A stretch of 33,410 nt of DNA, from the NCBI GenBank assembly GCA_003151855.1, contig PLYV01000094.1, positions 1-33,410 on the forward strand. The letters run 5' to 3'. The stretch comes from Limisphaerales bacterium (GTDB lineage: Bacteria; Verrucomicrobiota; Verrucomicrobiia; Limisphaerales; UBA11358). Positions 2,795 to 32,305 of the stretch are shown piece by piece; within the stretch, counting starts at the first letter, position 1, and each line of letters opens with the position of its first letter. A model generated the notes under the pieces. That model did no database searches, was not told the DNA's origin, and saw only the letters and a program-made list of their open reading frames with translations. A program made the translations under genes and the position numbers.

Positions 2795-4087
2795 TCGGGT
2801 CACCTTCAATTTGCTGACGCGCGGCCCGTCCATATCCTCCACGCGCAATTCAAAATCGCCGATCGTGACCAGATCGCCCGGACGCGGAAAGCCGCCGAGT
2901 TTTTCCGTGACCCAGCCGCTCGTGGTCGTCGTGCTTTCATCGTGCGGCACGGTGCCGATGATTTTTTCCAGCTCGTGCAACGCTAGTGTGCCGGCGGCTT
3001 CCCAGACATTTTCGCCGAGGCGCACCAGCTCGGATTTCTCCGTGTCGAACTCGTCCTGGATCTGCCCGACGAGCGCCTCCAAGGTGTTTTCCAAAGTCAC
3101 GATGCCGACCGTGCCGCCAAATTCATCCACCACGACGGCGAAATGCGATTTGCGGTCGAGGAACCGCCGCAGCAGCTTGTCGAGCGCCGCTGTTTCGGGA
3201 ATGTAGAATAATTTCCGCGCCAGCGGCAGCAGTTCCGCCGCCGTCTTGGCCCGCTCGCGCAAGGCATATAAATCCTTGATGTGAACCACGCCAAGCGTCT
3301 GGTCGAGGTTGCCGCTTTCGCAGATGGGAAAACGCGAGTAGCGCGTCTTTTCCGCCAACGCCACGCACTCGGCCAGCGTCGCCGTCGTGTCGAACGCCGT
3401 GATTTCATTGCGCGGACTCATCACCTCGCGCGCCGTGCGATGCCGCAGATCCAGTGCGTTCAAAATCAGGTCGCGCCGTTCCGCCGAGCCTTGCGCGGCG
3501 CCCAGCACCACGCGCAATTCCTCCTCCGAATGCCGGTCGTGCAGTTCGCCGCCAGCAAAACCAAGCCAGCGCAAAACGATTTGCGACGAGCGGTGCAGCA
3601 CCCAGATGAATGGATAAGAGATGCGATAAAACCAGTTCAGCGGCGACGCCACCCACAGCGAGGTTTGCAGCGTGCGGCGGATGGCGATGGCTTTCGGCAC
3701 CAGCTCGCCCGCGATGATGAGCAGGTAGCAGTTCACGAAAAAGCCGACGACGATGGCGATGGTGCTTTGCGTGTGTTCGCTCGTGATTTTCAGCAGCGGA
3801 AAAAACGGTTCCAGCAGCGCGCGGAAAACCGGTTCCACCAAAACACCCAGCGCCATGCTGGCGAGCGTGATGCCGAACTGCGTCGCGCCGATGTAGGAAT
3901 CAATGTGCGCGACGATGTGCCGCGCGGTGCGGGCGCGGCGGTTGCCCTTCGCCGCCAGCGGCGCGAGCTGCGTGTCGCGGATGCGGACGAACGCCAGCTC
4001 CGCCGCCACGAAAAAGGCATTGCACAACACCAGCAGCGCCACGGCCAGCAGCTTCAGGGCGTCGTCTATGACATCGTTCCAGTTCAT
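2765..4087 (-). CDS. CNNM/CorC-type membrane protein (DUF21, CBS pair, CorC_HlyC domain)
   Basis: A 440-aa protein with the full architecture of the so-called hemolysin/CorC family. The DUF21/CNNM transmembrane domain fills residues 1 to about 190 and starts with the typical AELAFVRIR stretch after the first helix. A CBS pair follows from about 210 to 330 (MSPRNEITAFD, SRFPICESG, FAVVVDEFGGTVGIVTLE), and then the C-terminal transporter-associated domain, about 345-430 (LGGFPRPGDLV). Characterised relatives are linked to magnesium or cobalt export and to envelope homeostasis. It is the last of three consecutive family members on this strand. The final eight or so residues come from a heptamer repeat, so the natural C-terminus has been replaced or extended. 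Confidence 0.92.
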   Translation of the reverse strand: MNWNDVIDDALKLLAVALLVLCNAFFVAAELAFVRIRDTQLAPLAAKGNRRARTARHIVAHIDSYIGATQFGITLASMALGVLVEPVFRALLEPFFPLLKITSEHTQSTIAIVVGFFVNCYLLIIAGELVPKAIAIRRTLQTSLWVASPLNWFYRISYPFIWVLHRSSQIVLRWLGFAGGELHDRHSEEELRVVLGAAQGSAERRDLILNALDLRHRTAREVMSPRNEITAFDTTATLAECVALAEKTRYSRFPICESGNLDQTLGVVHIKDLYALRERAKTAAELLPLARKLFYIPETAALDKLLRRFLDRKSHFAVVVDEFGGTVGIVTLENTLEALVGQIQDEFDTEKSELVRLGENVWEAAGTLALHELEKIIGTVPHDESTTTTSGWVTEKLGGFPRPGDLVTIGDFELRVEDMDGPRVSKLKVTRRISNLKFEI

Positions 4088-5215: not shown

Positions 5216-6432
5216 TTGGTTTGCTCCACCAGCAGTTCGCGCACGCGCCGTTCGTCCGCAACGTGCGCGGTGAATTTCAACCCGGCGAACATCGCCGATT
5301 CGCCCGGCGCCGGCACCACGCCAAGCAGATGTGTCAGCAGGCCGCCCATCGTCTCAACCTCGTTCACGTCGGGCAGCAATGGAAATTCGCGGCGGAAATC
5401 CTCCAGCCGCATCGTGCCGTTCACGCGCCAGCGGCCGGCTGAAATTTTTTCCAGCACGAAACCCTGCGGCGACGACGCCACGCGAATCTTGCCAACGATG
5501 CCACCCAGAATATCCTCCATTGTCACCAAACCGGCGGCGCTGCCGAACTCGTCGAGCACGATGGCCAGCCCGCGCTGCTGCTTTTGCAACGCACGGAAAA
5601 GCTGGAGCAGATTCATCGTCGCCGGCACGAACGACGGAAACTCGATTACCTCCGCCAAGTCCACTTTCGGATCGAGCAGCAAGGCGCGCGTGTTCAGAAT
5701 GCCGACGATGGTATCCGGCGTTTCGTCGTAAATCGGCAGCCGGCGATGCTGATGTTTCCGCGTCATCGCGAGCATTTCCTCCACGGTGGCGTCGTCAGAG
5801 ATCGCGGCCATGCCGGCGCGCGGACGCATCACGTCGCGCGCCGTGCGACGGTCGAGGCTGATGATTTGCAGGATGATTTCGCGCTCCGATTCCTCCAGCG
5901 TGCCCTGCTGCGCGGCGAGTTCGAGCAGCTCCTGATATTCCGCTTCCGTCACGGCGGCGGGCGGCGTGGCAGTGGCGGCGGCCTGCTTGAGGATCGCGGC
6001 ATTCGTCCACTGCGCGGCGCGGTAAAACGGCTTGGTGACGCGACGAAAGAGCAGCAGCGGCCACGCCACGCGCAACGCCCAGCGTTCCGGCTGCCGCACC
6101 GCGAGCGTCTTGGGCAGCACCTCGCCGACGAGCAGCACCACCGCCGCCAGCGCCAGCATCGTCAGGCCAAAACCCCATTGCGCGTTGAACACCATGCGGA
6201 GCGCGGCGGCAAGGATGGCGGCGTTGGCGAACGTGTTTCCCAGCGCCAGCGTGGCCTGCAAATCGTGGGGACGTTCGAGGAGATCGGAAACAATTTTGCC
6301 CGTGCCGGCCTTGTTCTCGGCGAGATGCGCCACCTGCCATTTGCTCAAGGAAAACAGCGCCGTCTCCGCCAGCGCGAAGAAGAAACTCGCGCCCGCGAAC
6401 ACCAGAATCGCTAAAACCATCGCCGTTTCCAT
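5212..6432 (-). CDS. CNNM/CorC-type membrane protein (DUF21, CBS pair, CorC_HlyC domain)
   Basis: From ATG 6432 the protein has 406 aa. A DUF21 domain starts immediately (METAMVLAILVFAGASFFF, then AETALFSLSKW), with GEVLPKTLAVRQP at the domain's end. The CBS pair follows (VMRPRAGMAAISDD, HRRLPIYDETPD, LAIVLDEFGSAAGLVTMEDILGG), and a CorC_HlyC domain lies at the C-terminus (VNEVETMGGLLTHLLG). The open frame reaches a GTG at 6501 that overlaps the acpS stop; that start would add 23 residues before the usual N-terminus, so ATG 6432 was preferred, but the coupled GTG is a real alternative. The stop overlaps the next gene by four bases. Confidence 0.9.
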   Translation of the reverse strand: METAMVLAILVFAGASFFFALAETALFSLSKWQVAHLAENKAGTGKIVSDLLERPHDLQATLALGNTFANAAILAAALRMVFNAQWGFGLTMLALAAVVLLVGEVLPKTLAVRQPERWALRVAWPLLLFRRVTKPFYRAAQWTNAAILKQAAATATPPAAVTEAEYQELLELAAQQGTLEESEREIILQIISLDRRTARDVMRPRAGMAAISDDATVEEMLAMTRKHQHRRLPIYDETPDTIVGILNTRALLLDPKVDLAEVIEFPSFVPATMNLLQLFRALQKQQRGLAIVLDEFGSAAGLVTMEDILGGIVGKIRVASSPQGFVLEKISAGRWRVNGTMRLEDFRREFPLLPDVNEVETMGGLLTHLLGVVPAPGESAMFAGLKFTAHVADERRVRELLVEQTK

Positions 6433-6497
6433 TACACCCAGATTAAGCGCAAACAGGACAATGGAAAAGCCGAATTGCTGGTGGCGCGCGACCGGGA

Positions 6498-6875
6498 TCA
6501 CCCTTCCAAAATCGCCGTGGCCGCCGCGTAGTTTTCCGTGTGCGTGAGGCTGAGGTGCAGTTGCCGCGCGCCGCGCGCCGCAAATAGTTCCGCGCCCTTG
6601 CCGTGCAGCACCACAAACGGCTCGCCCGATTCCTTGCGCCGGATCTCGATGTCCTGCCAGCCGATCTGCGCGCCGATGCCGGTGCCGAACGCCTTGGATA
6701 CCGCCTCCTTGGCCGCGAACCGCACCGCCAGAAACGGCGCGGGATTTTTGTGCGCCAGGCAGTAGGCGATTTCGTCAGGCAGCAACACGCGGTTCACGAA
6801 ACGTTCGCCAAACTTCGCAAATGACGCCGCGATGCGAGCCACTTCGATGAGGTCAATGCCGGTGCCGAGGATCAT
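6498..6875 (-). CDS. acpS: Holo-[acyl-carrier-protein] synthase AcpS
   Basis: 125 aa, the normal length for AcpS. The N-terminus MILGTGIDLIEVARI carries the magnesium-binding Asp8. The block RFAAKEAVSKAFGTGI carries Glu57, the second metal ligand and the family signature. The end LHLSLTHTENYAAATAI is also typical. AcpS moves the 4'-phosphopantetheine arm of CoA onto acyl carrier protein in the cytoplasm. Here it follows queD after 57 bases, which hold a heptamer repeat touching its start codon, and precedes the CNNM genes closely. Its proximity to luxE/luxC-like acyl-processing genes could reflect shared acyl-carrier chemistry, but acpS is often placed in housekeeping operons. Confidence 0.96.
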   Translation of the reverse strand: MILGTGIDLIEVARIAASFAKFGERFVNRVLLPDEIAYCLAHKNPAPFLAVRFAAKEAVSKAFGTGIGAQIGWQDIEIRRKESGEPFVVLHGKGAELFAARGARQLHLSLTHTENYAAATAILEG

Positions 6876-6902
6876 TTGCGATTTACGATTTGCGATTTAC
6901 GA
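6875..6902. repeat. Heptamer tandem repeat TTTGCGA/TTTACGA, four units
   Basis: Two perfect copies of the 14-base unit TTTGCGATTTACGA, itself two related heptamers, lie in the queD-acpS spacer. The run touches the first base of the acpS start codon, so it occupies the place where a ribosome binding site would be. Confidence 0.9.
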
Positions 6903-6932
6903 TGGAAGCGCAAGCAAACTCGCCCAGCATCT

Positions 6933-7295
6933 TTATTCCCCGCGATAAACCGCCCGCGCCGTGCAGGTCTCAGCCACGACGATTTCCGTGAGCAACGGCA
7001 ACTTGGGCTTCAACTTTTTCCAAATCCAAATCGCCACCACTTCGCTCGTCGGATTTTCGAGGCCGGGAATTTCGTTGAGATAATAATGATCGAGCTTTTC
7101 CCAAAGCGGCTTGAACGCCGCCGAGATGTCGGCGTAATCCATCAGCCAGCCGAGTTTCGGGTCACACTCGCCCGCCACAACGACCTCGACGCTGAAGCTG
7201 TGGCCGTGCAGCCGGCGGCATTTGTGATTCTTTGGCAGCAGTGGTAGCAGATGCGCCGCCTCGAACTGAAACGTTTTTCTTAATTCCATTTTCAT
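6933..7295 (-). CDS. queD: 6-carboxytetrahydropterin synthase QueD family
   Basis: 120 aa with the full 6-pyruvoyltetrahydropterin synthase-like pattern. FEAAHLLP supplies zinc ligand His15, CRRLHGHSF supplies the catalytic Cys26 and zinc ligands His30 and His32, and NPTSEVVAIWIW and VAETCTARAVY complete the fold. QueD turns dihydroneopterin triphosphate into 6-carboxytetrahydropterin, the first dedicated step to queuosine and other 7-deazaguanines. The ATG overlaps the stop of the luxC-like gene (ATGA). No queC or queE lies in the window. The product could also serve another pterin pathway, though the Cys and spacing match QueD. Confidence 0.92.
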   Translation of the reverse strand: MKMELRKTFQFEAAHLLPLLPKNHKCRRLHGHSFSVEVVVAGECDPKLGWLMDYADISAAFKPLWEKLDHYYLNEIPGLENPTSEVVAIWIWKKLKPKLPLLTEIVVAETCTARAVYRGE

Positions 7296-8716
7296 AATTC
7301 AAAATCTATCCAAGTGATTAAGTCACCGAGCGCCGGACGGCCGTCGTGACGCCAGGTCAGAGGCGGGTTTTGCATCTGGCCGAGCGGACAAATCCGCGTG
7401 ACGCCCCAGCGCGCAAATTGCAGCGCCAGCGCCCTGCTCTTCTCATCCGGCGCAGCGATGCCCACGGTCGAAATTTTTCCAACAATCTCGTCCACGCCGG
7501 GCAATACCGCCGCCACGTCCGGCACCGGCTTGACGTAGATAAACCGGTTCAGCGGCGAGAAGCGGAAACGCACTTCATGCTCAAACACCACCGTCCACGC
7601 GGTTGAATTCCGGCTCGCCCACAGCTTCACGTCGCCGCGATGCGCCGCGAGCGATTCGTAGAGCGAACGCCGCGAGGCGATGGCGGCGGATTCTTCCACG
7701 GAAATTTTCCCGCGCGGTTCGGCAGCCTCGCGCCGCATCAGCTCGGCGGCGAGCAGCGCGGCAAATTTGTCCGATTCCACCGCGCCGCGTTCCTCGACGT
7801 AGATGACGTGCGGCGAGAGGCAGCCGTTTTGATCCCACGCAATCACGTCGTCCGCCGCGCAGGAAACAACCTTGGCAATGTCCTCGTCGCGCAAAACCTC
7901 GCGCGCCACATAGCCAAAGCTGACGCGCTGACCGTAGCCGAGGAAGCGGGTCTTCGCCGGCAGCCGCGAGCGGATCGCCAGCAGCGTCTCGTCGCTGCCG
8001 GTGGCCGTCACGCAATCGGCCCCGGCGAACAGCGCGGTTTCCAAAGCCACGTTGCCGCCGCGCCACTCGGCCAGTTCGAGGCACGCACCAAGCTTGTGGT
8101 CGGCTTCGTAGATCGAATGCGCAAAGAGGCGGGGCAGCAACGCCGCGCCGCTCGCGCACTTCATGAACTGCGCCGAGCGCGTGAGCAGGCCGAGCGTCAG
8201 GCTCATCAGGGCGGGATTCGGCAGATTGCCCGCCGCGATGTGGACGAGCAAATCCGGCCCATGCCAGAAATGAGGCGGTTGGCACTGGGCGCGGGGCGCG
8301 GGGTGGTGAGATTCCGTCACCGCCATGCCATTGTCCAAATCTTGTTCCAGCAACGCCTGAAAATTCTCCGGCGTGAACCGGCGGAAAAACTCGTCGAGAC
8401 CGCGCGCCAAAATTTCCGGCGGAAAACCTGCGGCTGGAGCGCCGGCCTCCGGCACGGCGTGTTTCAACGTGTCGCCCGGGCCGTGCCGGAGGCCGGCGCT
8501 CCGCCCGCTTGCCAGCGCGAGCCGGCGGAATTTATTTTCCGGCCGGAGCCATTCCGACGCAACTTCGCACAGGATGCTCACAAGCTCGTCCGTGGTGCGC
8601 GACACCAGATATTTCTCGCGGTTGCGTTTCAGCGTGTCGCACGCCTCCGTAATCATCGTGGGCGACAACGTCGCTTCCGGCGGCAGGTCGGCGAGGAAAT
8701 AGTTCGGAAGGTTCAT
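7292..8716 (-). CDS. Acyl-CoA reductase, LuxC family
   Basis: 474 aa. The family features are GPDLLVHIAAGNLPNPALMSL (about 153-173), VTATGSDETL, FLGYGQRVSFGYV and DQNGCLSPHVIYVE, with Cys299 as the likely thioester-forming cysteine. LuxC-type enzymes reduce an activated fatty acyl group to the aldehyde with NADPH. The gene starts six bases after the luxE-like stop and overlaps queD by four bases, so it belongs to this operon. Residues of about 70-97 are encoded by a perfect 23-base inverted repeat and its flanks, an in-frame insertion lying between the N-terminal helices and the core. No luciferase (luxAB) gene is present, so the role is not light production; a wax, aldehyde or lipid tailoring role is possible. 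Confidence 0.85.
   Translation of the reverse strand: MNLPNYFLADLPPEATLSPTMITEACDTLKRNREKYLVSRTTDELVSILCEVASEWLRPENKFRRLALASGRSAGLRHGPGDTLKHAVPEAGAPAAGFPPEILARGLDEFFRRFTPENFQALLEQDLDNGMAVTESHHPAPRAQCQPPHFWHGPDLLVHIAAGNLPNPALMSLTLGLLTRSAQFMKCASGAALLPRLFAHSIYEADHKLGACLELAEWRGGNVALETALFAGADCVTATGSDETLLAIRSRLPAKTRFLGYGQRVSFGYVAREVLRDEDIAKVVSCAADDVIAWDQNGCLSPHVIYVEERGAVESDKFAALLAAELMRREAAEPRGKISVEESAAIASRRSLYESLAAHRGDVKLWASRNSTAWTVVFEHEVRFRFSPLNRFIYVKPVPDVAAVLPGVDEIVGKISTVGIAAPDEKSRALALQFARWGVTRICPLGQMQNPPLTWRHDGRPALGDLITWIDFEL
8431..8507. repeat. Palindromic element inserted in frame in the luxC-like gene
   Basis: Two perfect 23-base arms (8436-8458 and 8480-8502) with the core GCCGGCCTCCGGCAC flank a 21-base loop, and the outer bases GCGG/CCGC extend the pairing. 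The element is open through the coding frame and adds about 28 residues rich in Gly, Ala and Pro to the acyl-CoA reductase. Confidence 0.9.
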
Positions 8717-8722
8717 CGGGGT

Positions 8723-9982
8723 TTACGCGTTCATCAAGGAACAGCCGCGTGGTTCGGCGAGTTGCGCGCGACCGATCAGTTCAAAGCCGTCACCCCGGCG
8801 GACGCCCAAATCTTCCGTCTGGATGGCGGCGACGGAAAAGACATTCGCCAGATCGAGAATGCGGATGAGTCCGGTTTCGCCTTCGCCGACTTCGCGACCG
8901 GTTTCCGGTGAAATGATTTGCACGCGCGCCCAGGGTGGAAAATGAAAGTGGCGGGTGACGGGTGACAGGTGACGGACGGGCGTCACGCCACTTGCCACTT
9001 GCCACGCGTCACTCGTCACGCTGTCGTAAGCCTGCGAGCTTAATTCACTCATGCCGTATTCGCAGAGGATGTTTTCACGCGGCACGCCGAGACGTTCGGT
9101 GATGAGCACGTGCAGTTCCGCCTTGGGCAGCGTGCGGGAACGGTTTTTGTAACCGCCGGTTTCCATCACGCGCGAACCGGGCGGAACCTCGACCCGCAGG
9201 TCTCGCTCCACCAAGTAATCCAGCAGGTGCACAAAAGAAAACGCGGTGCCCAAAACAAGTGACGGGTGACGAGTGACGGGTGACGGGTTCAGCGCTGCCA
9301 GCGTCGCCGCGAAATCCAGCGTCCACGAGCCATCGTCTGCCAGCTTGCCGAAAAATTCGTGCCGGCTCGCGCCTTCGCAGGAGCAAAGCTGCTCCGGCGA
9401 CGCAAGCGCGGGGACGCTCGCCCCACCACCGAGCTTTTGCCGCACCACTTCAAACATATGGACAAGCGAGGAGTGCGGCACCTGCTCTGGCGGCGGCGTC
9501 AGGATGGCCAATTTGAAATTTGAAATTCCAGATTTGAAATCCGGCAGGGCGTTCGCGCAAAACTGCGGCCACAGCGACGCCTCATACACCGCCAGCGATT
9601 CGGCGCAGTGGAAATGCCGGCTGGGTTTCTGCTCCGTCGTGCCGCTGGAATGGAAGACGGCGGTGCGTTCGGCTGGCGGAATACTGGTGAGTTCCAGTTC
9701 CTTGAACGCGCCCGTCGGCACGGCGGGGATTTGCGTCCAAACTTTCACCGTCTCCGGCGTGAGGTTGCGCGCCGCGCAGATTTTGCGGTAGGCGGGATTG
9801 TGCTGGAACTGGAGCGCGAACAGTTCCAGCGCCAGCGCGGAAAATTCCAAATCCAAAATGTCGCGCGAAGAACGCAAAGGAGGCGCAGGGACTTTTTCTT
9901 TTCGGTCTTCGCGGTCTTCGCGCGACGCACTCGAAATTAATTCGCGCAGGCGCGCGGCAAAACTGGAAAGTTCTTGGTTCAT
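8723..9982 (-). CDS. LuxE-like acyl-protein synthetase / acyl-activating enzyme
   Basis: 419 aa from ATG 9982. The adenylate-forming signature FHSSGTTEQKPSRH lies at about 110-123, METGGYKNRSR at 273-283, EYGMSELSSQAY at 308-319, and ETGLIRILDLAN with IQTEDLG near the end. LuxE proteins activate a fatty acid with ATP and hand it to the LuxC reductase, and the luxC-like gene follows after six bases. The protein is longer than usual because at least four, probably five, repeat-derived stretches lie in frame: about residues 19-42, 148-158, 186-208, 231-241 and 320-346. All key motifs lie outside them, so the enzyme may still work. The open frame extends upstream to 10201 without any family similarity; MNQELSSFAARLREL is the natural start. 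Confidence 0.85.
   Translation of the reverse strand: MNQELSSFAARLRELISSASREDREDRKEKVPAPPLRSSRDILDLEFSALALELFALQFQHNPAYRKICAARNLTPETVKVWTQIPAVPTGAFKELELTSIPPAERTAVFHSSGTTEQKPSRHFHCAESLAVYEASLWPQFCANALPDFKSGISNFKLAILTPPPEQVPHSSLVHMFEVVRQKLGGGASVPALASPEQLCSCEGASRHEFFGKLADDGSWTLDFAATLAALNPSPVTRHPSLVLGTAFSFVHLLDYLVERDLRVEVPPGSRVMETGGYKNRSRTLPKAELHVLITERLGVPRENILCEYGMSELSSQAYDSVTSDAWQVASGVTPVRHLSPVTRHFHFPPWARVQIISPETGREVGEGETGLIRILDLANVFSVAAIQTEDLGVRRGDGFELIGRAQLAEPRGCSLMNA
8954..9023. repeat. Heptamer repeat inside the luxE-like gene (copy d)
   Basis: Three units GGTGACR are followed, after a short turn, by five units of the complementary type (CACTTGC twice, CACGCGT, CACTCGT, CACGCTG), all in exact 7-base register. 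It encodes roughly residues 320-346 (SVTSDAWQVASGV and SPVTRH) between the EYGMSELSSQAY motif and the C-terminal subdomain. Confidence 0.85.
9259..9286. repeat. Heptamer repeat inside the luxE-like gene (copy c)
   Basis: Four exact 7-base units (GTGACGG, GTGACGA, GTGACGG, GTGACGG) encode the stretch PSPVTRHPS, near residues 231-241. The unit is the same as in the copy at 8954-9023, and the protein repeats SPVTRH at both sites. Confidence 0.88.
9364..9424. repeat. Imperfect palindrome inside the luxE-like gene (copy e)
   Basis: The centre GGAGCAAAGCTGCTCC (9380-9395) is flanked by partly complementary GC-rich arms. It encodes the Gly/Ala/Ser/Cys stretch near residues 186-208, which has no counterpart that I know in LuxE. 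This is the weakest of the five candidate insertions in the gene. Confidence 0.45.
9510..9543. repeat. Heptamer repeat inside the luxE-like gene (copy b)
   Basis: Units AATTTGA, AATTTGA, AATTCCA, GATTTGA in exact 7-base register encode FKSGISNFKLAI. It is the same AATTTGA-type unit that forms the tail ISNLKFEI of the CNNM gene at 2765. Confidence 0.85.
9860..9926. repeat. Palindromic element inside the luxE-like gene (copy a)
   Basis: A perfect 12-base inverted repeat (GTCGCGCGAAGA at 9860-9871 and its complement at 9915-9926) bounds 67 bases. The part next to the right arm holds 9-base units of the type GCGAAGACC. In the protein this gives SREDREDRKEK and a Pro/Arg-rich stretch near residues 19-42. 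Confidence 0.8.
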
Positions 9983-10305
9983 GCGGTGTTTGTTCGGGGC
10001 TGGTTTTCCGCGACAGCCGGCGGGCAGGATACCAGCCGCGCGCGCCACGGCAAGACGGGATTGCGGGCGGTGATTTCCCGTTGAACGGCAGACGGACGAA
10101 CCAGCATCTGTCCCCCGTCCAAGGTTGCCAGAAACGGCCATTGACGCCGGCACTGGGCAACCGTCTAAAGCGGGCAGCCCGCTCGTCCATACGGCCCGCA
10201 CCCGTCTCCGCCCCGCCTCGGTTCTCGTTTCACCCAGCCGAGGCGTCGGTGCCTCAAAACGACTCCCGTTTTGCCTGCCCGCCGTGGCGGCGACCCGCCA
10301 AAGGC

Positions 10306-10389
10306 ACTTTTTTCACCTGCCCGACGCGGCGGTTGCCCCAAACGAGTCTCGTTTTGGGTCGCCGACGGCGGGAGCAGGGCGAAAAAAGT
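10306..10389. repeat. 84-base near-palindromic element
   Basis: The outer ends ACTTTTTTC and GAAAAAAGT pair, GC-rich arms with some mismatches follow, and the centre is the exact palindrome AACGAGTCTCGTT. A second half-copy (CAAAACG...CGTTTTG and a GC-rich arm) lies just upstream at about 10255-10300. It could act as a transcription terminator but looks more like a repetitive element. Confidence 0.65.
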
Positions 10390-10469
10390 CCCGTTACCAC
10401 CTCCAACCCCACCAAGTTGGTCAAAAAGCGACAGTTGCGGCTGGGGCTACCGCTCGACGCGCCAGCATC

Positions 10470-10590
10470 TTGGACTGCGCCGGCAGAGCGAAGCGGCGAC
10501 GGCGCTTTCGGGCGGACAAGGTCGTGAATATTTCAACCCGCAGCGTGCGTGCGAAAGCGGGGTGGCGCTGCGCTTGCCACCGCAGTCCAA
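10470..10590. repeat. 121-base MITE-like element with TTGGACTGCG ends
   Basis: The ends TTGGACTGCG (10470-10479) and CGCAGTCCAA (10581-10590) are exact complements, and the arms stay similar for about 40 bases inward to CTTTCG/CGAAAG. The centre has no gene. The structure is that of a small non-autonomous inverted-repeat element; no transposase is nearby to tell which family mobilises it. Confidence 0.75.
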
Positions 10591-10767
10591 AACCGGTGGC
10601 CGTCCGCAAGAACTTCGCGGTTCCATTTTCCATTCTCCGCAGTTCAAATATCCACTAACTGAAACAAACCATGAAAGCTGACTACATCCAACAAAACGGT
10701 TCTTCGCTGTTTTCGGTGGAACCGGGTGGATTGGGAACTGGCTTTTGCCCGGCTCTGAAGGAGCCAT

Positions 10768-10952
10768 GGAAATTAGCCGGGGGCAAGCTGCCAGCGCCGC
10801 CCCCGGAACGACCACCTCTCGGAGTCCGCCCCGGCGGGGCGGTGGAAGGCTGGGGAACATCCCGTTCCGGCGTCCTTTCAGGACGCTGACGACTCGGAGG
10901 CCGTTACCGGGGGCGGCGACCGCCGGGGCGGTCTTGCCCCCGGCTAATTTCC
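10768..10952. repeat. 185-base MITE-like element with GGAAATTAGCCGGGGGCAAG ends
   Basis: Perfect 20-base terminal inverted repeats (10768-10787 and 10933-10952) enclose a GC-rich centre with CGGCGGGG/CCGGGGCGG-type stretches. It interrupts the frame that starts at 10671. The structure indicates a small mobile or formerly mobile element. Confidence 0.8.
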
Positions 10953-11368
10953 GCAGTCCCGCCGGGAGACCAGTGTTGCATTGGCAGTCTCGATGCAAAA
11001 TACCATAGCAAAATACCATAAATACATTGAAAAAAAAGGGTATTTAGCGTTTTATGTTTACCTGCGTTCAATCCGCCAAAATCATCCTCAATGGGGTATA
11101 AAAAGTCATTTCTGGCAACCGATGGCAACTAAACAGAGTGGACCAAACTTGGGATTGCGGCCTGAAAGCCTACGCGGTAAGGCGACGGCGAATACAACAT
11201 CTGGCGCAGCCTGCGCAAATGTTTTGACTACAAAACCGCCGTCTGCACCGCGTTCGTGGAAACGAGGTCGTCCACCTCATTGAGGACTTTGTCGTGCAAG
11301 GCGGCGTCTCTACCGACTTCGTCAAGTGGCGCGAGGACGACAGATGCTGTATGCCATGAGCACTTGTT

Positions 11369-14300
11369 CTAGTTGAGTAAAATCCGAAAGACCACGGCAA
11401 AATTGTTTGGAAGTTGACTGGATTGAGCGATTACCAAAGCTTGATCTGTCTGTCTCCAGTGGATTTTTTCCTGGCTGCCCAGCAATTGAATATTTTGGAT
11501 GGATGGGTTCAGCCACCCGGCGGATTTGCCGAGCGATTTGATGCTCACGCCGTTTGTTGGCGCGCCAAGCACGATGGCGTAAATCGTCCGGCCGTCTTTG
11601 GATTGCGTGAAGCGCACGTCTTCGGCCGTAAACGGCTGGCCTTTGCCCTCGTTGAATCCTTGTGCGCTCAAAGCCGCGCCTGCCGAGGCCGGCCCTTCGC
11701 CGAACACTTTCCACGGGCGCGTGCCGAAAATACATTCCTTGTTCACGTCCATCCAGTCGGCGATTCCTTCGACGACTTTGAGTTCCTTCTCGTCAATCGT
11801 GCCATCGCCGCGCACCGGAATGTTCAGCAGCAAATTCCCGTTCTTGCTGACTACATTCACGAGCGTCTGGATCACCGTCTTGGCGGACTTGTAGCCGTTG
11901 CGATTGTAAAGGCCGCGGTCGTAGTGCCAGTCACCGAGGCAGGTGTCCGTCTGCCACGGCTGGAGTTGAATCTCGTTGGCCGAACCGCGCTCAATGTCCC
12001 ACACCATGCACTGTTGCTGCTCCGGCGTGAGGATTTTGCCGAACAGCACGCCATCGTCGCCGTGCAACTTCTCGTTCGTGTTGTAAAAGTCTGCGGCAAT
12101 CTTCAAGCCTGCGTCGCTGATGGGCCAAAGCGGCAGCGCAGTGTCGTCGAAATAAATCAGGTCGGGATGATATTTTTTGATAAGGTCGGCGGTGCGATTG
12201 TAGAACTTGTCGCAATAGGCTTGGTCTGGAATGGAAATGCTGTTGCCCCAATTCCATTGGGAATGAATCTTGCCGGGATTCCGGTAATCCTTCGTCGGCG
12301 CATGATTTTGCGCATACAAATCCTGCGGATTGAGGCCGTCCCACCACTTGCCCACACCATCGGCTTTCGTCAGCTTGCCGTCGTAATCCTGCGCCGGCTC
12401 ATACCAACTCCACGCGTGCGCGGCGTGAACGCTAACACCGAACTTTAATCCATTGTCGCGCGCCGCTTTCGCCCAGCCGCCGATTAAATCTTTCTTCGGT
12501 CCGATGGCAACCGAGTTCCACGGTTGATAGGTGGAATCCCACAAATCAAAATTGTCGTGGTGATTGGCGAGCGCGAAGAAGTATTGCGCCCCGGCGCGCT
12601 TGTAGAGTTCCACCAATTTTTCTGGATCCCAATTCTCCGCCTTCCATTCATGAATCACATCCTTGAAACCAAACTCCAGCGGCGAGCCGTAGTGGTTGGT
12701 GTGAAATTGAAACTGCCAGCCACCGGTCTGATACATTCCGCGCGCATACCAGTCGCCGGCTTCCGGCTGGCATTGCGGTCCCCAATGCGCCCAGATGCCA
12801 AACTTGGCGTCGCGGAACCACTCCGGCACTTGGTATTGCTTGAGCGAGTCCCACGTTGGCGCAAATTTGCCGGACACCATCGGCTCGGCCACTTTTGTCG
12901 CGCTGACTTGCAGCAACACGCAGCCATGCGGCGGCAGTTCGGCGGTAAAATTTGTCTGCGCGCTCAACATCTTGTGCGTCCACAAATCGCGGACGTTTGG
13001 CGGAACGATAAAACCATGATCCTGCCATGAAACGTTCGCTGCCAATGGCTTCGCCGTTCGGTTGAAAATGCCGACGGCCAACGCGCCGCTGGCGAGGTGT
13101 CTTGTCCAAATTTCCGGCGAACTGCCGGCCGCAGTCACTCGTCGGGCGGGCTGGCCGAGCGGGTCTTGGTTAATGTCAATCACTTCATCGTTGTTGAGCA
13201 GCGCGAGCGTGGCCGGGTCGAGATCGGTCAGGTTCGCGCCCAGCATCAGCGGCGATGGCGCGAGCGCCCAGAGCGACATGAGCGTGCGTTGTTCGTCATG
13301 CGTGAAACGGGTCTGATGCTCTTTGGAATTCGTCCAGCAGCGGATGCTGAGGTGGCCAAATGGAATCATATCCGCGTCTGGCCAATGTCCTGGCACGCCT
13401 GCGCCCTGCCAGCGCGCGACCAGGTCAAATTGATGATTTAATTTTTTCCACTCGTCCCAAAAATCGCCGGAGATGCGCCAGAGGTTTGCGTTGGTGCGAA
13501 TATGTTCGGCGAAACGAAAATCTGTTTCACCGGGCGAGGTGCTGAAAACAATCTGTCGCCCGCACTTGTCAATCGCCTTACGGATCATCTCAATTTCGCC
13601 TGCGTTGTAGGGCACCGAAAGGTCGTCCACCTTGATGTAGTCCAGCCCCCACGCAGCATAAAGCCGGAACATGGAGTCATACCACGCCTGGCCCGCCTCG
13701 TTGTCGCGCACGCCAAACATGTCCGGACACCAGCCGCAAATGCTTTTCGGGTTCGCGGCATCGGCGGCGGTAAACCCGCTGCCTTCAATCGGCATCTTTG
13801 CCCTGACGGCCTGACGCGGGATGCCGCGCATCATGTGAAAACCGAATTTCAAATTCATTGCGTGAATCTCATCCACGAGCGGCTTAAAGCCTTTGCCGCC
13901 GATGGCCGAGGGAAACCGGTTCGTTGCTGGCAGCATCCGCCCGAATTCGTCAGCAAACAATTTTGCGCCGCTGCGTTCTTTGGTCAGGTTCTTGTCGTCG
14001 TAGGTGGTCACGGAATCATACCAGCGAAAATCAATGACCACATAATTCCAGCCGTGCGCGAGCAGATGCTTCTTTAAGTAGCGGGCATTGGCGAGCGTCT
14101 CCGCCTCGGTCACGCTGTCGCCAAAGGCATCGTAACTGTTCCAGCCCATTGGCGGCGTCATCGCAGTTCGGTTGCCGGTCACGAGTGTGAATTTGGTCTC
14201 TGCCTGGCCGGTGGAATTTTTGGCGAACACGGAGAACGCATATTCACCTGCCGTCTTGAGCGATCCACTGATCAAGCCCGTCTTCGGATCAAGCGTCAGG

Positions 14301-24176: not shown

Positions 24177-24547
24177 GATGGTTTTTGTTTTGTTATGGCC
24201 GATACGTTTATTTAGCCCATCCAGACGCAACACGACGCAGTTGGCTGCGCGACGACTAGAGTGGCTTACAATAAGTAGTGGCGACCTTCCGATCCAAAAG
24301 AGGAAAAATATTTTGAAGTTTATTCAACGCGCAGCCAACCCAGAGAAAACCCATGAAAAGCCTCAAAACAAAGTTTTTTTCATTTAGAGGGTGTTGCGAA
24401 AGTTTTTACAACAAACTGCCAATTAGACAGATGAGCCAAATATTGCGCGTGGAGGCATCCTGACACGCCCCCAACCGTGGTGACAGCTTCCGCTGAAGCA
24501 CCGTGCATTGTTGGATTGAACGCGATCAGCAAGAACCTTCCGCCCCG
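24177..24547. other. Intergenic region, 371 bases
   Basis: It holds the leader of the PEP-CTERM gene and the conserved 52-base box at 24270-24321. From about 24322 to 24547 I see no gene, strong hairpin or RNA. Confidence 0.6.
24270..24321 (-). promoter_or_regulatory. Conserved 52-base box, copy A
   Basis: By eye 47 of 52 bases match the copy at 32165-32216, with no gap. On the minus strand the core reads TTTTGGATCGGAAGGTCGCC. The two copies have the same orientation relative to a minus-strand gene start (PEP-CTERM here, the anchored helical-repeat gene there). The box may be a promoter or operator; GGAA and GTC are compatible with an ECF-type promoter but the spacing is not established. Confidence 0.55.
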
Positions 24548-26644: not shown

Positions 26645-28546
26645 TCAAGGTGCTTGCAGCGACCACTGTTGGTTGTTCCCACCCGTCCATTGCCAGAGTT
26701 GAACGACCGCGCCGTCAGCCGTCGAGACGCCGTTCACGTCCAGGCACGAGCCGGTCGCACTGTTCGGCGTGATCCGGTAGTATCCACTGTCGGTTCCAGA
26801 GAACGTGAAGGTCTGATTGGCACCGCCATTGTAGTCCCACAACTCCACCTTGCTTCCATTGGCTGTCTGATAGTTGTAGACGTCCAAGGCCTTGCCGCTC
26901 TGCACGCCGATGATTTTATAGTTGCCGCTGCCCAGACCGGTCACGGTCCACTTCTGGTTGGCCCCGCCGCCATAGCTCCACTGGATGATCTGCGTGCCAT
27001 TTGCGGTCCCGTTGTTGTAGGCATCCAGCGCCTTGCCGCTATGGCGGGCAATGAGCTTATAAGTGCCGTTCGCAATGGTTCCGCCGCCACCACCACTGCC
27101 GCAGGTGCCGCCGACGCTGTTGAAGCCAGACCACGAATAGGTCTTCCCGGAAACCGTTATGTTGCCGGATGAACCCAGGCCATAAGCCGAGAGATTGTTC
27201 CCTTGTGTGGCGGTCTGCCCATTGACCTTTTCCAGCGTGCCACTCAGCGTGAAGGTGAGGGTGTTGTAACCACCGTTGCCGTTGATAGTCCCGCCGATCG
27301 TTGGCGCCCCGTTAATACTGACCGTGTCATTGCCTGTGCTCAGCCAGATATTTCCCTGGGGGATATCGCCGGAATCAGTGAAATTGCAGTTGCCATTCCA
27401 GTGTGAAAGATCGACACCCAACGGCGCATTCAGAGTGCCGCTGTTGTTGACGGTCAGCGTGCCGGCGGTGCCGGTAGAGCCGTGGAACGCCATCAGGGCG
27501 GAACCATTGTTGTGGGTGATCGTGCCTGAATTACTGACGTTGCAGGCGTCACCCGCGTTATCCGTTTCCACACCGGCACCCCAGCCGCCACTGCTGCCCG
27601 CAGTGACGTTAATGGTGCCCGTATTGTTGAAGTTAAGGGTGCCGCGAGAATTAGCGGCGTAAATCCCTTTGGCCGTAGTCCCGGAGGCAGAGACATAGCC
27701 GTAATTATTGAGGGTGCAGGCACCGCCGCCGGCGAACAGCATGATGCCGATGCCATACGAGCCGGCACTGGCAGTGGCCGAGCCAGAGTTCTCGCAGTAG
27801 ATCGGCGCCCCTGAAGCGCCGTCAAACGAGTAACAATCCAAGGCCGCAGCGTATTGGGACGCGGAGGCCGAGGCCGTTCCCCGGTTATACAAATTAACCG
27901 GGCCATAATAGTCGGAGCAATTGATGCCTCCGGCATAGTAGTTGGCGGTGGCACTGGCAGTGCAGCCGGAATTATTGTTCACCGTCGCCCCGCCATAGAG
28001 GCTATATTGATAAATACCCGCTGACGCCCCGTCATGGTTCTGCACCTGTCCATCGCATGTGCCGTTGTTGTTGATCGTGAGGTTGAGGCCACCGGAACTC
28101 CCGTAGAACGAACAGGCTAACAAGCCCGCCGCATAACACACGCCGCTGCCCGAAGCAATTCCCTGCTGCGTGCCGCTGAGGTTAATAGTCGCTGAGTTGC
28201 CGCCCCAATATAGCGCGCCAACACTAAAATAGTCGGTGCCCGACATGGCGTTACCGCCAACGTAGGTGTCCCAACCGAATGTTGCGCTCGAGTTCGGCAA
28301 CGAGCCGGACGAGTAGGCGCTCCCCGAACTGGAGAAGGTTCCGTTACCGGTCCACAGGGTGCCGCCGTAGAAATGTCCGGAGCAATTATTCCACGAACCG
28401 GGCGCGTCGGAAAAGCTGGCGTCCGCCCGTTGCAGACCCAGCGAAAGAACCGCCAAGCCGATGAACGCGCCCATGCCGGTTATCCCGCCGTGTGAGCCAA
28501 GCCAGCGTTTCTGGCGGAGGGGTTGGTTTGATTTTGGTGTTTTCAT
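26645..28546 (-). CDS. Secreted repeat-rich (beta-helix-like) protein with C-terminal ricin-type trefoil
   Basis: 633 aa from ATG 28546, with an extended signal region (GITGMGAFIGLAVLSLGLQ). The middle, about residues 80-440, is rich in Gly, Ser, Asn and Ala and repeats a pattern such as LNNYGYVSASGTTAKGIYAAN, LNFNNTGTINVTAG, CNVSNSGTITHNNG, TLTVNNSGTL, typical of parallel beta-helices of surface proteins. A poly-Gly linker leads to a ricin/CBM13 beta-trefoil of about 140 residues with three subrepeats (NGTYKLIARHSG..., SGNYKIIGVQSG..., SGYYRITPNSAT...), each ending in a Q-x-W/F-like strand. No catalytic motif is visible. It probably binds glycans, but could be a lyase with an unusual helix. 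An extension to 28687 would cross the terminator of the next gene. Confidence 0.8.
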   Translation of the reverse strand: MKTPKSNQPLRQKRWLGSHGGITGMGAFIGLAVLSLGLQRADASFSDAPGSWNNCSGHFYGGTLWTGNGTFSSSGSAYSSGSLPNSSATFGWDTYVGGNAMSGTDYFSVGALYWGGNSATINLSGTQQGIASGSGVCYAAGLLACSFYGSSGGLNLTINNNGTCDGQVQNHDGASAGIYQYSLYGGATVNNNSGCTASATANYYAGGINCSDYYGPVNLYNRGTASASASQYAAALDCYSFDGASGAPIYCENSGSATASAGSYGIGIMLFAGGGACTLNNYGYVSASGTTAKGIYAANSRGTLNFNNTGTINVTAGSSGGWGAGVETDNAGDACNVSNSGTITHNNGSALMAFHGSTGTAGTLTVNNSGTLNAPLGVDLSHWNGNCNFTDSGDIPQGNIWLSTGNDTVSINGAPTIGGTINGNGGYNTLTFTLSGTLEKVNGQTATQGNNLSAYGLGSSGNITVSGKTYSWSGFNSVGGTCGSGGGGGTIANGTYKLIARHSGKALDAYNNGTANGTQIIQWSYGGGANQKWTVTGLGSGNYKIIGVQSGKALDVYNYQTANGSKVELWDYNGGANQTFTFSGTDSGYYRITPNSATGSCLDVNGVSTADGAVVQLWQWTGGNNQQWSLQAP

Positions 28547-28641: not shown

Positions 28642-29778
28642 TCAAGGCGCTTGGAAGGACCATTGCTGGTTGTTGCCGCCCGTCCATTGCCAGAGTTGAA
28701 CGACCGCACCGTCAGCCGTCGAGTAGCCGTTCACGTCCAGGCACGAGCCGGTCGCGCTGTTCGGCGTGATCCGATAGTTACCGCTGTCGGTTCCAGAGAA
28801 CTTGAAGGTCTGGTTGGAGCCGCCAGAGTAATCCCACAGTTGGACCTTCGTGCCGTTGCCAGTGCCCCAGTTGTTGATGTCAATGGCCTTGCCGCTATGC
28901 ACGCCGATGATCTTGTAATTACCACCTCCGGTGTCGGTCACCGTCCACTTCTGATTGGCCCCGCTAGTGTAGCTCCATTGCTGGATTTGCGTGCCGTTGG
29001 CGGTGCCGTATCCATTGGCATCCATCGCCTTGCCGCTGTGCCGGGCGATGAGTTTGTAGGTGCCGTTGCCTAGGCCCGAGCTGTTCTGACCCCAGTTCGC
29101 CGAGAATGAGTTAACGGTGAACTGCTGCCAGCCGCTGGTGTATGTTACTTCAACGCCAAAGCACAAGTGATGCAGCGTGCTATTGTGCAATAATCCCCTG
29201 TTGGAAGCCCAAATAAAATACGCCATGATATCCTCGGAACCGCTGGACTGCTGGTTGGCAGGGGTGAAGATAAGGACGTTATTGGCACCGTTGTTTGCCT
29301 GTGAAACGGATTTGATAAGTTTGCCGCCAATAGTAACGTTGGCAGATATCTCAGTGCCCCACCCATGGTTTCCTCCATCATCAAACCACCCCTCCTGAAT
29401 CATCAGCTCGTCTTGATTGTTGGCAGTCCATACGTCGTAAAAGAAGCTCCACCAAGGATTATTGGGGGCGCTAAAGTTGAAGCTGGAATTGCAGTAATAG
29501 CTGCTGCTAATAGGAACGTCCACGTCCGATTGCGTGCTGGCGTAATTTTTTGTGCCGCCGCCCGTCCAGCTTCCAGCGCAGGCAAAGTTGCCGGCATTGT
29601 TGGCGTAAAGTTCGGCGTAGGAACTCGATCCCCACTCATCCGCGTAAACCGTCCAGTTGCCGAAGTTAAAGGTGGCCCATTGGCCTGAAGCGGTGTAGTT
29701 CCAAGCATGGGCGCTGGTCACGAAGCCGACGACCAAGGCCGCCAGAACTGACAATTTCATATTTAGTTTCACAAACAT
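28642..29778 (-). CDS. Secreted GH12-like glucanase with ricin-type trefoil
   Basis: 378 aa from ATG 29778; ATG 29760, directly before the signal peptide MKLSVLAALVVGFVTSAHA, is an alternative. The first ~230 residues fit the GH12 jelly roll: an N-terminal strand with ADEWG, SWTGGGTKNYAS (compare W-G-G-x-x-V-K-x-Y), YDVWTANNQDELMIQ with candidate nucleophile Glu124, and LCFGVEVTYTSG with candidate acid/base Glu210. GH12 enzymes cut beta-1,4-glucan backbones, including xyloglucan. From about 236 a ricin/CBM13 trefoil follows with three subrepeats (NGTYKLIARHSGKAMD ...). The motif match is distant, so substrate and even activity are open. Confidence 0.72.
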   Translation of the reverse strand: MFVKLNMKLSVLAALVVGFVTSAHAWNYTASGQWATFNFGNWTVYADEWGSSSYAELYANNAGNFACAGSWTGGGTKNYASTQSDVDVPISSSYYCNSSFNFSAPNNPWWSFFYDVWTANNQDELMIQEGWFDDGGNHGWGTEISANVTIGGKLIKSVSQANNGANNVLIFTPANQQSSGSEDIMAYFIWASNRGLLHNSTLHHLCFGVEVTYTSGWQQFTVNSFSANWGQNSSGLGNGTYKLIARHSGKAMDANGYGTANGTQIQQWSYTSGANQKWTVTDTGGGNYKIIGVHSGKAIDINNWGTGNGTKVQLWDYSGGSNQTFKFSGTDSGNYRITPNSATGSCLDVNGYSTADGAVVQLWQWTGGNNQQWSFQAP

Positions 29779-29887: not shown

Positions 29888-31105
29888 TTAGGGTGCCTGA
29901 AACGACCACTGCTGATTGTTGCCGCCCGTCCATTGCCAGAGTTGGACTTTCGCGCCACCCGCCGTGGAGACCCCATCCACGTCCAGGCATGACCCGGTCG
30001 CGCAATTCGGCGTGATCCGGTAGTTACCGCTGTCGGTCGCGGTGAACTTGAATTGCTGACTGGAGCCATTCCAGTAATCCCAGAGCTGCACCTTGGTTCC
30101 ATTTGCAGATGCTAATGCGTTTATATCTACAGATTTTCCGCTCTGCACGCCGATGATCTTAGAATACCCGCTGCCAGTGTCAGTCACAGTCCACTTTTGA
30201 CCGGCACCACCCCAGTAAGTCCATTGCTGAATTTGCGTGCCGTTGCCGGTTCCTTGACTATAGGCATCCATCGCCAGGCCACTATGGCGGGCAATGAGTT
30301 TATAGGTGCCATTGGAGGGACCGCTGCTGCTGCTGCCGGTGCTGGCATCAATCCAGCCGTTGATGTAACACCAGCCATTGCCTTGAACCACCTCGAAGCC
30401 GGCCTCCACAACATCCAGATACATGCCGATGTTGAAACGACCGTCGCCGCTCCGGTTGTTATGCAGCCATTGGTAGAACGTCTTCAAGTCAATGTTCATG
30501 TTGCCACTGGTGGGCAGGCTGTTTACCGGCCAGACCACCGAGCCGTCGGGAACAAACGTATAAACATAGTAACCGGCGGAACTGTTATAGCCTTCCCAGA
30601 TGTCCCAGGACGTATTGTTGGCATACAGGACGTTGTAGCCGGTGCAGTTGCCGATCGGAAAGGAATTGTGTCCGGCCCAAACCATGACTTCCACTTGGGG
30701 CGAGGACTTGGCGTTGTCCCAGCGCAGGAAAGTGTCATAGGCGAAATCCCCCTGCATGCCGGATCCGCCGGAATTATAGGAGAATTGGCAGGGAATGCTG
30801 CCCAGTTGCGATACTTGCGCCGGGAACAGGTTGTCACCGGTCGGACTCCAGCCATAATGCCAGCCGCGACAAATCGCGGGGTAACCATAGAGATTTGCGC
30901 TGCCGAAGTTGAACCCAATGCTCTCCTCGGGATAGCTGCCGGTGCCGAAAGAAGCGCCGATGCTGTTGTTGGGGTCGTTGAAGTTATTATTCCAGGCCCA
31001 GCACGGGCCGTAGGTTTTATAGGCTCCGGCCTGGACCGTGCAGGCAAACCCGGCCAGCAAAAGCATGGTCGCCGCCGGTTTGATGAATTTGTTTCTTATG
31101 CTCAT
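29888..31105 (-). CDS. Secreted GH12-like glucanase with ricin-type trefoil
   Basis: 405 aa with a signal peptide (residues 1-26, AATMLLLAGFACTVQA). The catalytic part shows YDTFLRWDN, QVEVMVWAG with candidate nucleophile Glu139, and MYLDVVEAGFEVVQGNGW with candidate acid/base Glu238; the latter, G-F-E-x-x-x-G, is a classic GH12 signature. The ricin/CBM13 trefoil begins near 265 (NGTYKLIARHSGLAMD). It is a diverged paralogue of the gene downstream: the catalytic parts differ much, the trefoils are nearly the same. Predicted to cut beta-1,4-glucan or xyloglucan outside the cell. Confidence 0.78.
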   Translation of the reverse strand: MSIRNKFIKPAATMLLLAGFACTVQAGAYKTYGPCWAWNNNFNDPNNSIGASFGTGSYPEESIGFNFGSANLYGYPAICRGWHYGWSPTGDNLFPAQVSQLGSIPCQFSYNSGGSGMQGDFAYDTFLRWDNAKSSPQVEVMVWAGHNSFPIGNCTGYNVLYANNTSWDIWEGYNSSAGYYVYTFVPDGSVVWPVNSLPTSGNMNIDLKTFYQWLHNNRSGDGRFNIGMYLDVVEAGFEVVQGNGWCYINGWIDASTGSSSSGPSNGTYKLIARHSGLAMDAYSQGTGNGTQIQQWTYWGGAGQKWTVTDTGSGYSKIIGVQSGKSVDINALASANGTKVQLWDYWNGSSQQFKFTATDSGNYRITPNCATGSCLDVDGVSTAGGAKVQLWQWTGGNNQQWSFQAP

Positions 31106-32007: not shown

Positions 32008-32164
32008 TGGTGGCGGGGAAGGACGCACGGCAACGGAAAGGCCAATGGCATCTCCTGAAACTGGGAACGTAATCTGTTGGATATCTGCATACAAAATCAA
32101 TCATTTCAGCCCGGAACAATGAACGGTTTTCATTGGGGGTATTAGTGATATTTATTGGGTGTTC

Positions 32165-32216
32165 AATTAGTAGTGGCGACGTTCCGATCCAAAAAAGGAA
32201 AAATATTTTAAGGTTT
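32165..32216 (-). promoter_or_regulatory. Conserved 52-base box, copy B
   Basis: Matches copy A at 24270-24321 in about 47 of 52 bases. It lies 158-209 bases before the anchored helical-repeat gene and, on the other side, 90-141 bases before the sigma factor. The minus-strand core TTTTGGATCGGAACGTCGCC contains GGAAC, the usual -35 core of ECF-type promoters; that reading is inference. Confidence 0.55.
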
Positions 32217-32305
32217 TTTTCACGGGGAAATAATTCCTCCGTTGACTATCTTCGGCTTTCGCTGTTCATTTGTTGGTGACCCAAGAGCCAACTGATTTTT
32301 AAGCC

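Follow-up and report, generated by a model that had tools for sequence, protein, structure and literature searches.

How does the gene of a working enzyme come to hold repeated and palindromic DNA at five places within one open reading frame, and what becomes of those places in related species? The question is raised by a luxE-like gene in the 33,410-nt stretch of DNA analysed here (the window), which is contig C293 of a draft genome of 3.8 Mb (331 contigs, 69.7% complete). The relatives of this contig are Verrucomicrobiota, many of them labelled subdivision 3 or Limisphaerales.

The luxE-like gene encodes an intact LuxE-family protein

The luxE-like gene is read from 9982 to 8723 without a single stop codon or frameshift, and is not the pseudogene that the first-pass annotation had considered as an alternative. 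Its product matches the Pfam LuxE family (PF04443) at 52.5 bits against a curated cut-off of 24.9, and also finds the LuxE chain of PDB entry 7xc6 in a profile search (E 8e-24). An AlphaFold model of the protein has a mean pLDDT of 83.8, and the structures nearest to the model are adenylating enzymes of the PaaK type. Residues S112-S113-G114-T115, E308-Y309-G310-M311, D391 and C414 are invariant in 36 luxE orthologs, and all of them fall outside the stretches encoded by repeats; the earlier observation that the adenylation motifs are spared is thus borne out, S112–T115 and E308–M311 lying clear of all five sites. We take C414 to be the acylated cysteine. Comparison with relative L041 gives an identity of 0.80 overall and 0.62 at third positions, the lower third-position value being that expected of a gene under purifying selection. 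These comparisons confirm that the gene encodes an intact enzyme of the LuxE family, for which acyl-protein synthetase activity is predicted.

Five repeat stretches are read in frame within luxE

The analysis confirms that five stretches of dispersed-repeat DNA are read in frame within luxE, and that they fall within loops of the predicted structure, clear of the conserved motifs (Table 1). All five places noted at first pass do hold such DNA, and the suggestion that several repeat types are mixed is also correct, since heptanucleotide arrays, a hairpin of ~9-nt repeats and a dispersed palindromic element are all present. About 92 residues of the protein are encoded by repeat DNA. In the AlphaFold model all five sites are predicted as coil loops of reduced confidence (residues ~21–40, 150–160, 187–204, 231–240 and 321–340).

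Table 1. Coordinates of the luxE-like gene and of the repeat stretches within it.
Feature	Position	Strand	Description
luxE-like gene	8723–9982	minus	LuxE-family acyl-protein synthetase (predicted), 419 aa
Site N	9860–9926	minus	hairpin element, arms of ~9-nt repeats, residues ~19–41
Site A	9510–9540	minus	AATTTGA-type heptanucleotide array, residues ~148–158
Site D, whole	9363–9428	minus	one arm of a dispersed palindromic element plus a nested palindrome
Site D, element arm	9407–9428	minus	GGTGGGGCGAGCGTCCCCGCG, arm of the dispersed palindromic element, read GGASVPA
Site D, nested palindromic stretch	9368–9406	minus	39 nt, 13 codons, inside the element arm
Site B	9259–9288	minus	GTGACGG-type heptanucleotide array, residues 232–242, no net length change
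Site C	8948–9019	minus	inverted heptanucleotide array pair forming a hairpin, residues ~322–345

The sites differ in their content. The hairpin at site N (folding z −4.0) has related copies at nine further places in the genome; L041 carries a similar element in the identical position, L003 and L047 have a different palindrome instead, and L002 has a heptamer array. The site D element begins GGTGGGGCGAGCGTCC, and no terminal GTAG/CGTC tag is seen. Its 14-mer core, allowing at most one mismatch, has 25 matches in G000, the genome of the window (one for the reversed control), 32–87 in five members of the genus (0–3 for the reversed pattern) and 0–15 in the remaining members. The palindromic stretch nested at this site is absent from L041, L043 and L049. 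Alone among the inserts, the site D arm encodes a constant peptide, GGASVPASR, and its third positions agree at 96% between carriers versus 55% in the gene core, the former figure being inflated since carriers were picked by the motif. Site C folds as a hairpin with z −2.5, and the arrays at sites A and B are single and non-palindromic. No Rfam family matches the hairpins of the luxE region (6400–11400).

Orthologs carry different units in the same loops

Alignment with relatives maps the insert sites and finds bare forms at N, A, D and C. Relatives vary in length and content at every site, the bare lengths being 13–17 residues at N, 15 at A, 14 at D and 12 at C, and those in the window 36, 22, 33 and 33, respectively. 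The first-pass annotation had read the stretches as insertions, a reading that relatives with the same residues and no repeats would contradict; at these four sites relatives without the repeats lack the residues, so that it holds there. Site B is different. The window has 23 residues at this loop, as do most array-free orthologs, and the residues themselves differ, which argues that the array has replaced residues without net insertion. The repeats therefore account for the excess length of the protein at four of the five sites, 9259–9288 contributing none, and the earlier estimate of about 95 added residues is too high: the window protein exceeds the shortest close ortholog (353 residues) by 66 and the median (374) by 45.

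A set of 25 close orthologs, chosen by similarity and not for their repeats, contains 27 heptamer arrays in 28.1 kb of luxE, versus four in 105.7 kb of flanking DNA (binomial p 6e-15). Genome samples lead one to expect 1.8 arrays in 28.1 kb, about 15-fold fewer than observed. Nearly all of the 27 are at sites A, B and C, with one at N (that of L002). Some array-free orthologs with loops of equal length may carry eroded old arrays, so that array counts would not equal independent events.

There are several informative features of these arrays. First, the units differ among species within one loop, with at least eight different units at site A among close species. Second, their orientation is specific to the site: it is uniform at site B (8/8), where the arrays are read as polar peptides such as NPQSAIR, TQNSKLK and TRHPSPV, whereas at site A both orientations occur (that of L042 is opposite to that of L003) and 9 of 12 arrays are in the other, more hydrophobic one. 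This site-specific orientation, and thus peptide type, fits a filter imposed by the protein. Third, the inserts have no conserved residue, and the length of the loops is nearly constant. Finally, perfect arrays are present in genes that have diverged considerably. At site B, TCAAAAC arrays are common to L043 and L049, whose third positions are 47% identical; at site C, L042 and L052 (51% identical at third positions) have (AATCCAG)4 and (CATCCAG)4, respectively. Perfect arrays amid saturated third positions point to recent turnover.

Heptanucleotide arrays are dispersed in the genome and in the phylum

Tandem repeats of period 7 form six segments above threshold in the window, and none is found there for any other period from 3 to 12, nor at period 7 in three Markov shuffles, which argues against chance. 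Period 7 also stands out among tandem periods in the ortholog loci. A 914-kb sample from G000 and its relative G188 contains 59 period-7 segments, versus 2–10 for each of the periods 4–6 and 8–12. A simple ORF caller places 41 of these arrays wholly within ORFs, seven at ORF edges and 11 between ORFs. A typical array has ~4 to 4.5 units and is ~30 nt long (median 29 nt, most commonly 25 or 31–32 nt). Ten close pairs of arrays were found in the sample, mostly 24–38 nt apart and mostly inverted; three of the ten fold strongly (z −4.8 to −8.4), and the hairpins are ~67–107 nt in length.

The arrays share a degenerate unit, CRNMAHY or its complement. A unit profile built from the 59 arrays outside luxE carries 5.8 bits, and the luxE arrays score 3.6 on it, versus 0.85 for random heptamers; for the 75 units of an earlier set that overlaps this one, the figure was 5.2 bits versus 3.8–4.0 for letter-shuffled units. 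G000 contains 42 runs of four consecutive consensus units (reversed control, three). Elsewhere in the phylum this four-unit pattern is patchy, with up to 714 matches (control, 0), none in many genomes, and a few genomes in which control matches outnumber those to the pattern. Plasmids of the cyanobacterium Trichormus variabilis have one and zero matches, which is uninformative. The Y1_Tnp transposase, the domain of the tyrosine transposases (RAYTs) that go with GTAG/CGTC REPs, was considered as a driver of the heptamers and rejected: it is found in G000 and most relatives, and is absent from G397, one of the richest genomes with 714 matches.

Arrays are also located at gene ends. An AATTTCA array at 2761–2792 lies at the 3′ end of the ORF at 4087–2765, whose protein terminates ISNLKFEI, and a period-7 array at 6874–6903 is just upstream of an acpS-like gene.

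Arrays occupy fixed loops in addB and occur in further genes

Searching the genome, as the first-pass annotation had proposed, finds related copies dispersed and arrays in other genes as well. In addB of the genus there are 25 arrays in 65 kb (G188 left out), most of them at four fixed loops and with units that differ in most species; at least one addB array is present in 13 of 20 species (G188 counted). At the third of these sites bare loops have 23–26 residues and loops with arrays 31–32, a difference of ~7 residues or three units, and 31 is also the length in some orthologs without an array; at the second site most orthologs have 30–31 residues, with an array or without. Arrays are also present inside AddA, RibD, TrpD, HisC, AroA and a histidine kinase, these genes being named by eye. 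The luxC gene, which adjoins luxE, has two arrays in 27 kb, the background level. luxE is therefore not unique, and sockets for arrays exist in some genes and are absent from others.

One further insert was seen in luxC of the window (7292–8716), where a strong in-frame palindrome (z −7.5) spans 8430–8508. It is absent from 18 of the 19 orthologs compared, and L231 has a similar insert in the identical position.

A conserved leader upstream of luxE and other features of the window

Directly before the luxE start codon is a leader at 9983–10018 (minus strand) of the pattern GGCUGUNGCGGANNACCAGCC-N4-34-ACCGC (with the start codon, GGCUGUNGCGGANNACCAGCC-N-ACCGC-AUG). Of 97 genomes of the order, 57 have the pattern, almost all of them a single time (reversed control, 0). 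Its first stem covaries, with four pairs changed on both sides, a result matched by one of 500 shuffles, and with a covariation score of 0.120 versus 0.037 (0 of 500 shuffles). A GCGG within the leader may pair with the CCGC before the start codon, and that helix is invariant. No Rfam family matches the leader. It is possibly an H-type pseudoknot that would cover the start, and it is a candidate translational regulator. The leader is separate from the repeat finding.

Two other observations concern the right part of the window. Three neighbouring ORFs have similar C-terminal segments (26645–26944, 28642–28941 and 29888–30187; 73–82% DNA identity) that by eye resemble lectin repeats of the QxW type, and a non-coding-looking 61-nt direct repeat is present at 24269–24329 and 32164–32224 (87% identical, 7.9 kb apart).

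Comparison with known repeat systems

In-frame palindromes (the Rickettsia palindromic elements, RPEs, and the REPs of Opitutus) and heptamer repeats (in Nostoc and Xanthomonas) are already known. RPEs are ~150 bp, inserted in frame in ORFs, and each has a conserved peptide (PMC10969869). The likeness to them drawn in the first-pass annotation holds only loosely, as regards in-frame position: in both systems dispersed repeats are read in frame in unrelated metabolic genes and are apparently compatible with the fold (PMC10969869). It does not extend to the ~30-nt heptamer arrays that occupy three of the five sites, to the hairpins, which are likewise shorter than RPEs, to the peptides, which vary with unit and species here, or to the sharing of sockets across species.

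REPs with GTAG or CGTC tags are, in the part of the published account used here, found in frame inside genes of several hosts including Opitutus terrae, also a member of the Verrucomicrobiota; the same part describes double inserts in uvrA, with O. terrae among the hosts of intragenic REPs, and different REPs at about one site in recB of two Xanthomonas (PMC3733652). They thus resemble the luxE elements as small in-frame palindromes in genes of the same phylum. They are palindromes of 20–40 bp with a tetranucleotide tag, whereas sites A, B and C are tandem heptamers, and that part of the account describes no turnover of units at fixed loops over many species (PMC3733652).

The P6b stem of the Nostoc tRNA-Leu intron contains degenerate heptanucleotide repeats, TDNGATT (Class I) and NNTGAGT (Class II) (PMC4476775, PMC3488679), that form the arms of a hairpin and are replaced class by class at one site, as degenerate heptamers are here. 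Comparable pairing of arms is seen in the ten close pairs and at site C, while single arrays lack it. The Nostoc repeats are in a non-coding RNA, a group I intron of cyanobacteria, whereas those described here are in protein genes and intergenic DNA. TDNGATT fits the heptamer profile (4 of 1000 permuted motifs do as well); the Class II unit was rejected as a match, 416 of 1000 permuted motifs doing as well, so that its fit is not significant. The likeness to TDNGATT need not reflect a common origin.

GGGNATC-type heptameric repeats of Xanthomonas and Nostoc prefer four units, and have one G-rich unit that is over-represented in non-coding DNA (PMC4692102); here there are many units, and the sampled arrays are predominantly inside ORFs. 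The TAACTGA heptamers of Beggiatoaceae are also dispersed and in tandem, with one unvarying unit that is found mainly right before start codons (PMC4679880); as a candidate for the same unit TAACTGA was rejected, its profile score being near background. In the open-licence literature searched, no description of heptamer arrays in Verrucomicrobiota was found. As far as that literature goes, two things are new: heptamer arrays that form coding inserts in this phylum, and sockets that stay fixed while their units change.

Origin and turnover of the inserts

We think it fairly probable, on the comparative evidence above, that dispersed repeat elements of this clade occupy permissive loops in a functional enzyme, where they are translated as part of the loop. 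Since seven is prime to three, the three frames of a strand all read an array as the same cyclic heptapeptide, so that only the strand and the net length must suit the host gene; selection of the reading frame was considered as the reason for stop-free reading, and is needless. Permissive "socket" loops of some enzymes would be colonised by clade-specific repeats, with arrays that land in such loops, or are converted into them, surviving if loop length and character stay. Sockets in luxE and addB would hold arrays repeatedly or persistently, and in each species the unit would be replaced, re-homogenised or eroded. Units would thus turn over quickly, filtered by purifying selection on the protein that keeps loop length and character. 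Turnover presumably draws on copies elsewhere in the genome, through insertion or conversion, and on slippage within the array; the arrays would give the enzyme no specific gain. Dispersal of pre-formed units is favoured by the inverted pairs, the common consensus and the recurrence of unit types, and local homogenisation by the one-base difference that all copies at site C share; the two may act together.

Replication slippage by itself, through which any 7-base word in a tolerant loop would expand to about four copies with no dispersed element, is in our judgement unlikely. Seven nucleotides has been proposed as a length favoured by the polymerase (Mrazek et al. 2007, as cited in PMC4679880), and slippage would suit both the L042 and L052 arrays, in which one base has changed in all copies, and the gain of arrays in loops of constant length at site B. 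It is at odds with the strong consensus of the units across genes and genomes, with the frequent inverted array pairs separated by a spacer, a form that slippage does not produce, and with the two of five luxE sites that are palindromic elements and not heptamers.

Still less probable is that the inserts are old, present in the ancestor of the clade and now merely drifting apart. Such a history would agree with socket positions and lengths common to many species, with the eroded-looking forms that are present, and with the identically placed, similar elements at site N of the window and L041, but not with perfect arrays in genes of ~55% third-position identity, with the near-identity of the site D arm at those positions (inflated though it is by the choice of carriers), with opposite orientations at site A, or with three unrelated repeat families at site N. 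We regard it as very unlikely that selection has diversified the loops so as to tune LuxE function, partner binding or mRNA folding: the enrichment of arrays in luxE over the genome sample and the site-wise orientation bias would be expected, but AddB and other unrelated genes behave alike, the insert residues lack conservation, and bare luxE orthologs exist. That luxE is a pseudogene or an artefact of assembly is barely credible, for although the source draft genome is 70% complete and assembly can be confused by repeats, the gene is free of stops and frameshifts, its LuxE motifs are intact, and the sockets are likewise filled in many separately assembled genomes.

Beyond the occupation of permissive loops by dispersed repeats, the heptamer arrays might represent a minimal conversion-driven or mobile class across the Verrucomicrobiota, and perhaps the cyanobacteria, that is independent of frame, keeps lasting loop sockets and is exchanged as cassettes at constant length; we hold this broader reading to be possible though doubtful.

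The loops of LuxE and AddB amount to a natural, many-times-repeated experiment in loop replacement, in which they hold unrelated peptides while the genes stay open and the motifs conserved. This makes testable the spread of short repeats into genes, the preference for a period of seven, and the tolerance of protein loops for foreign sequence. It is also a caution for annotators, as such loops are elements at the level of DNA and not features of the protein. The findings suggest that repeats are swapped in and out at fixed spots of working genes in uncultured bacteria.
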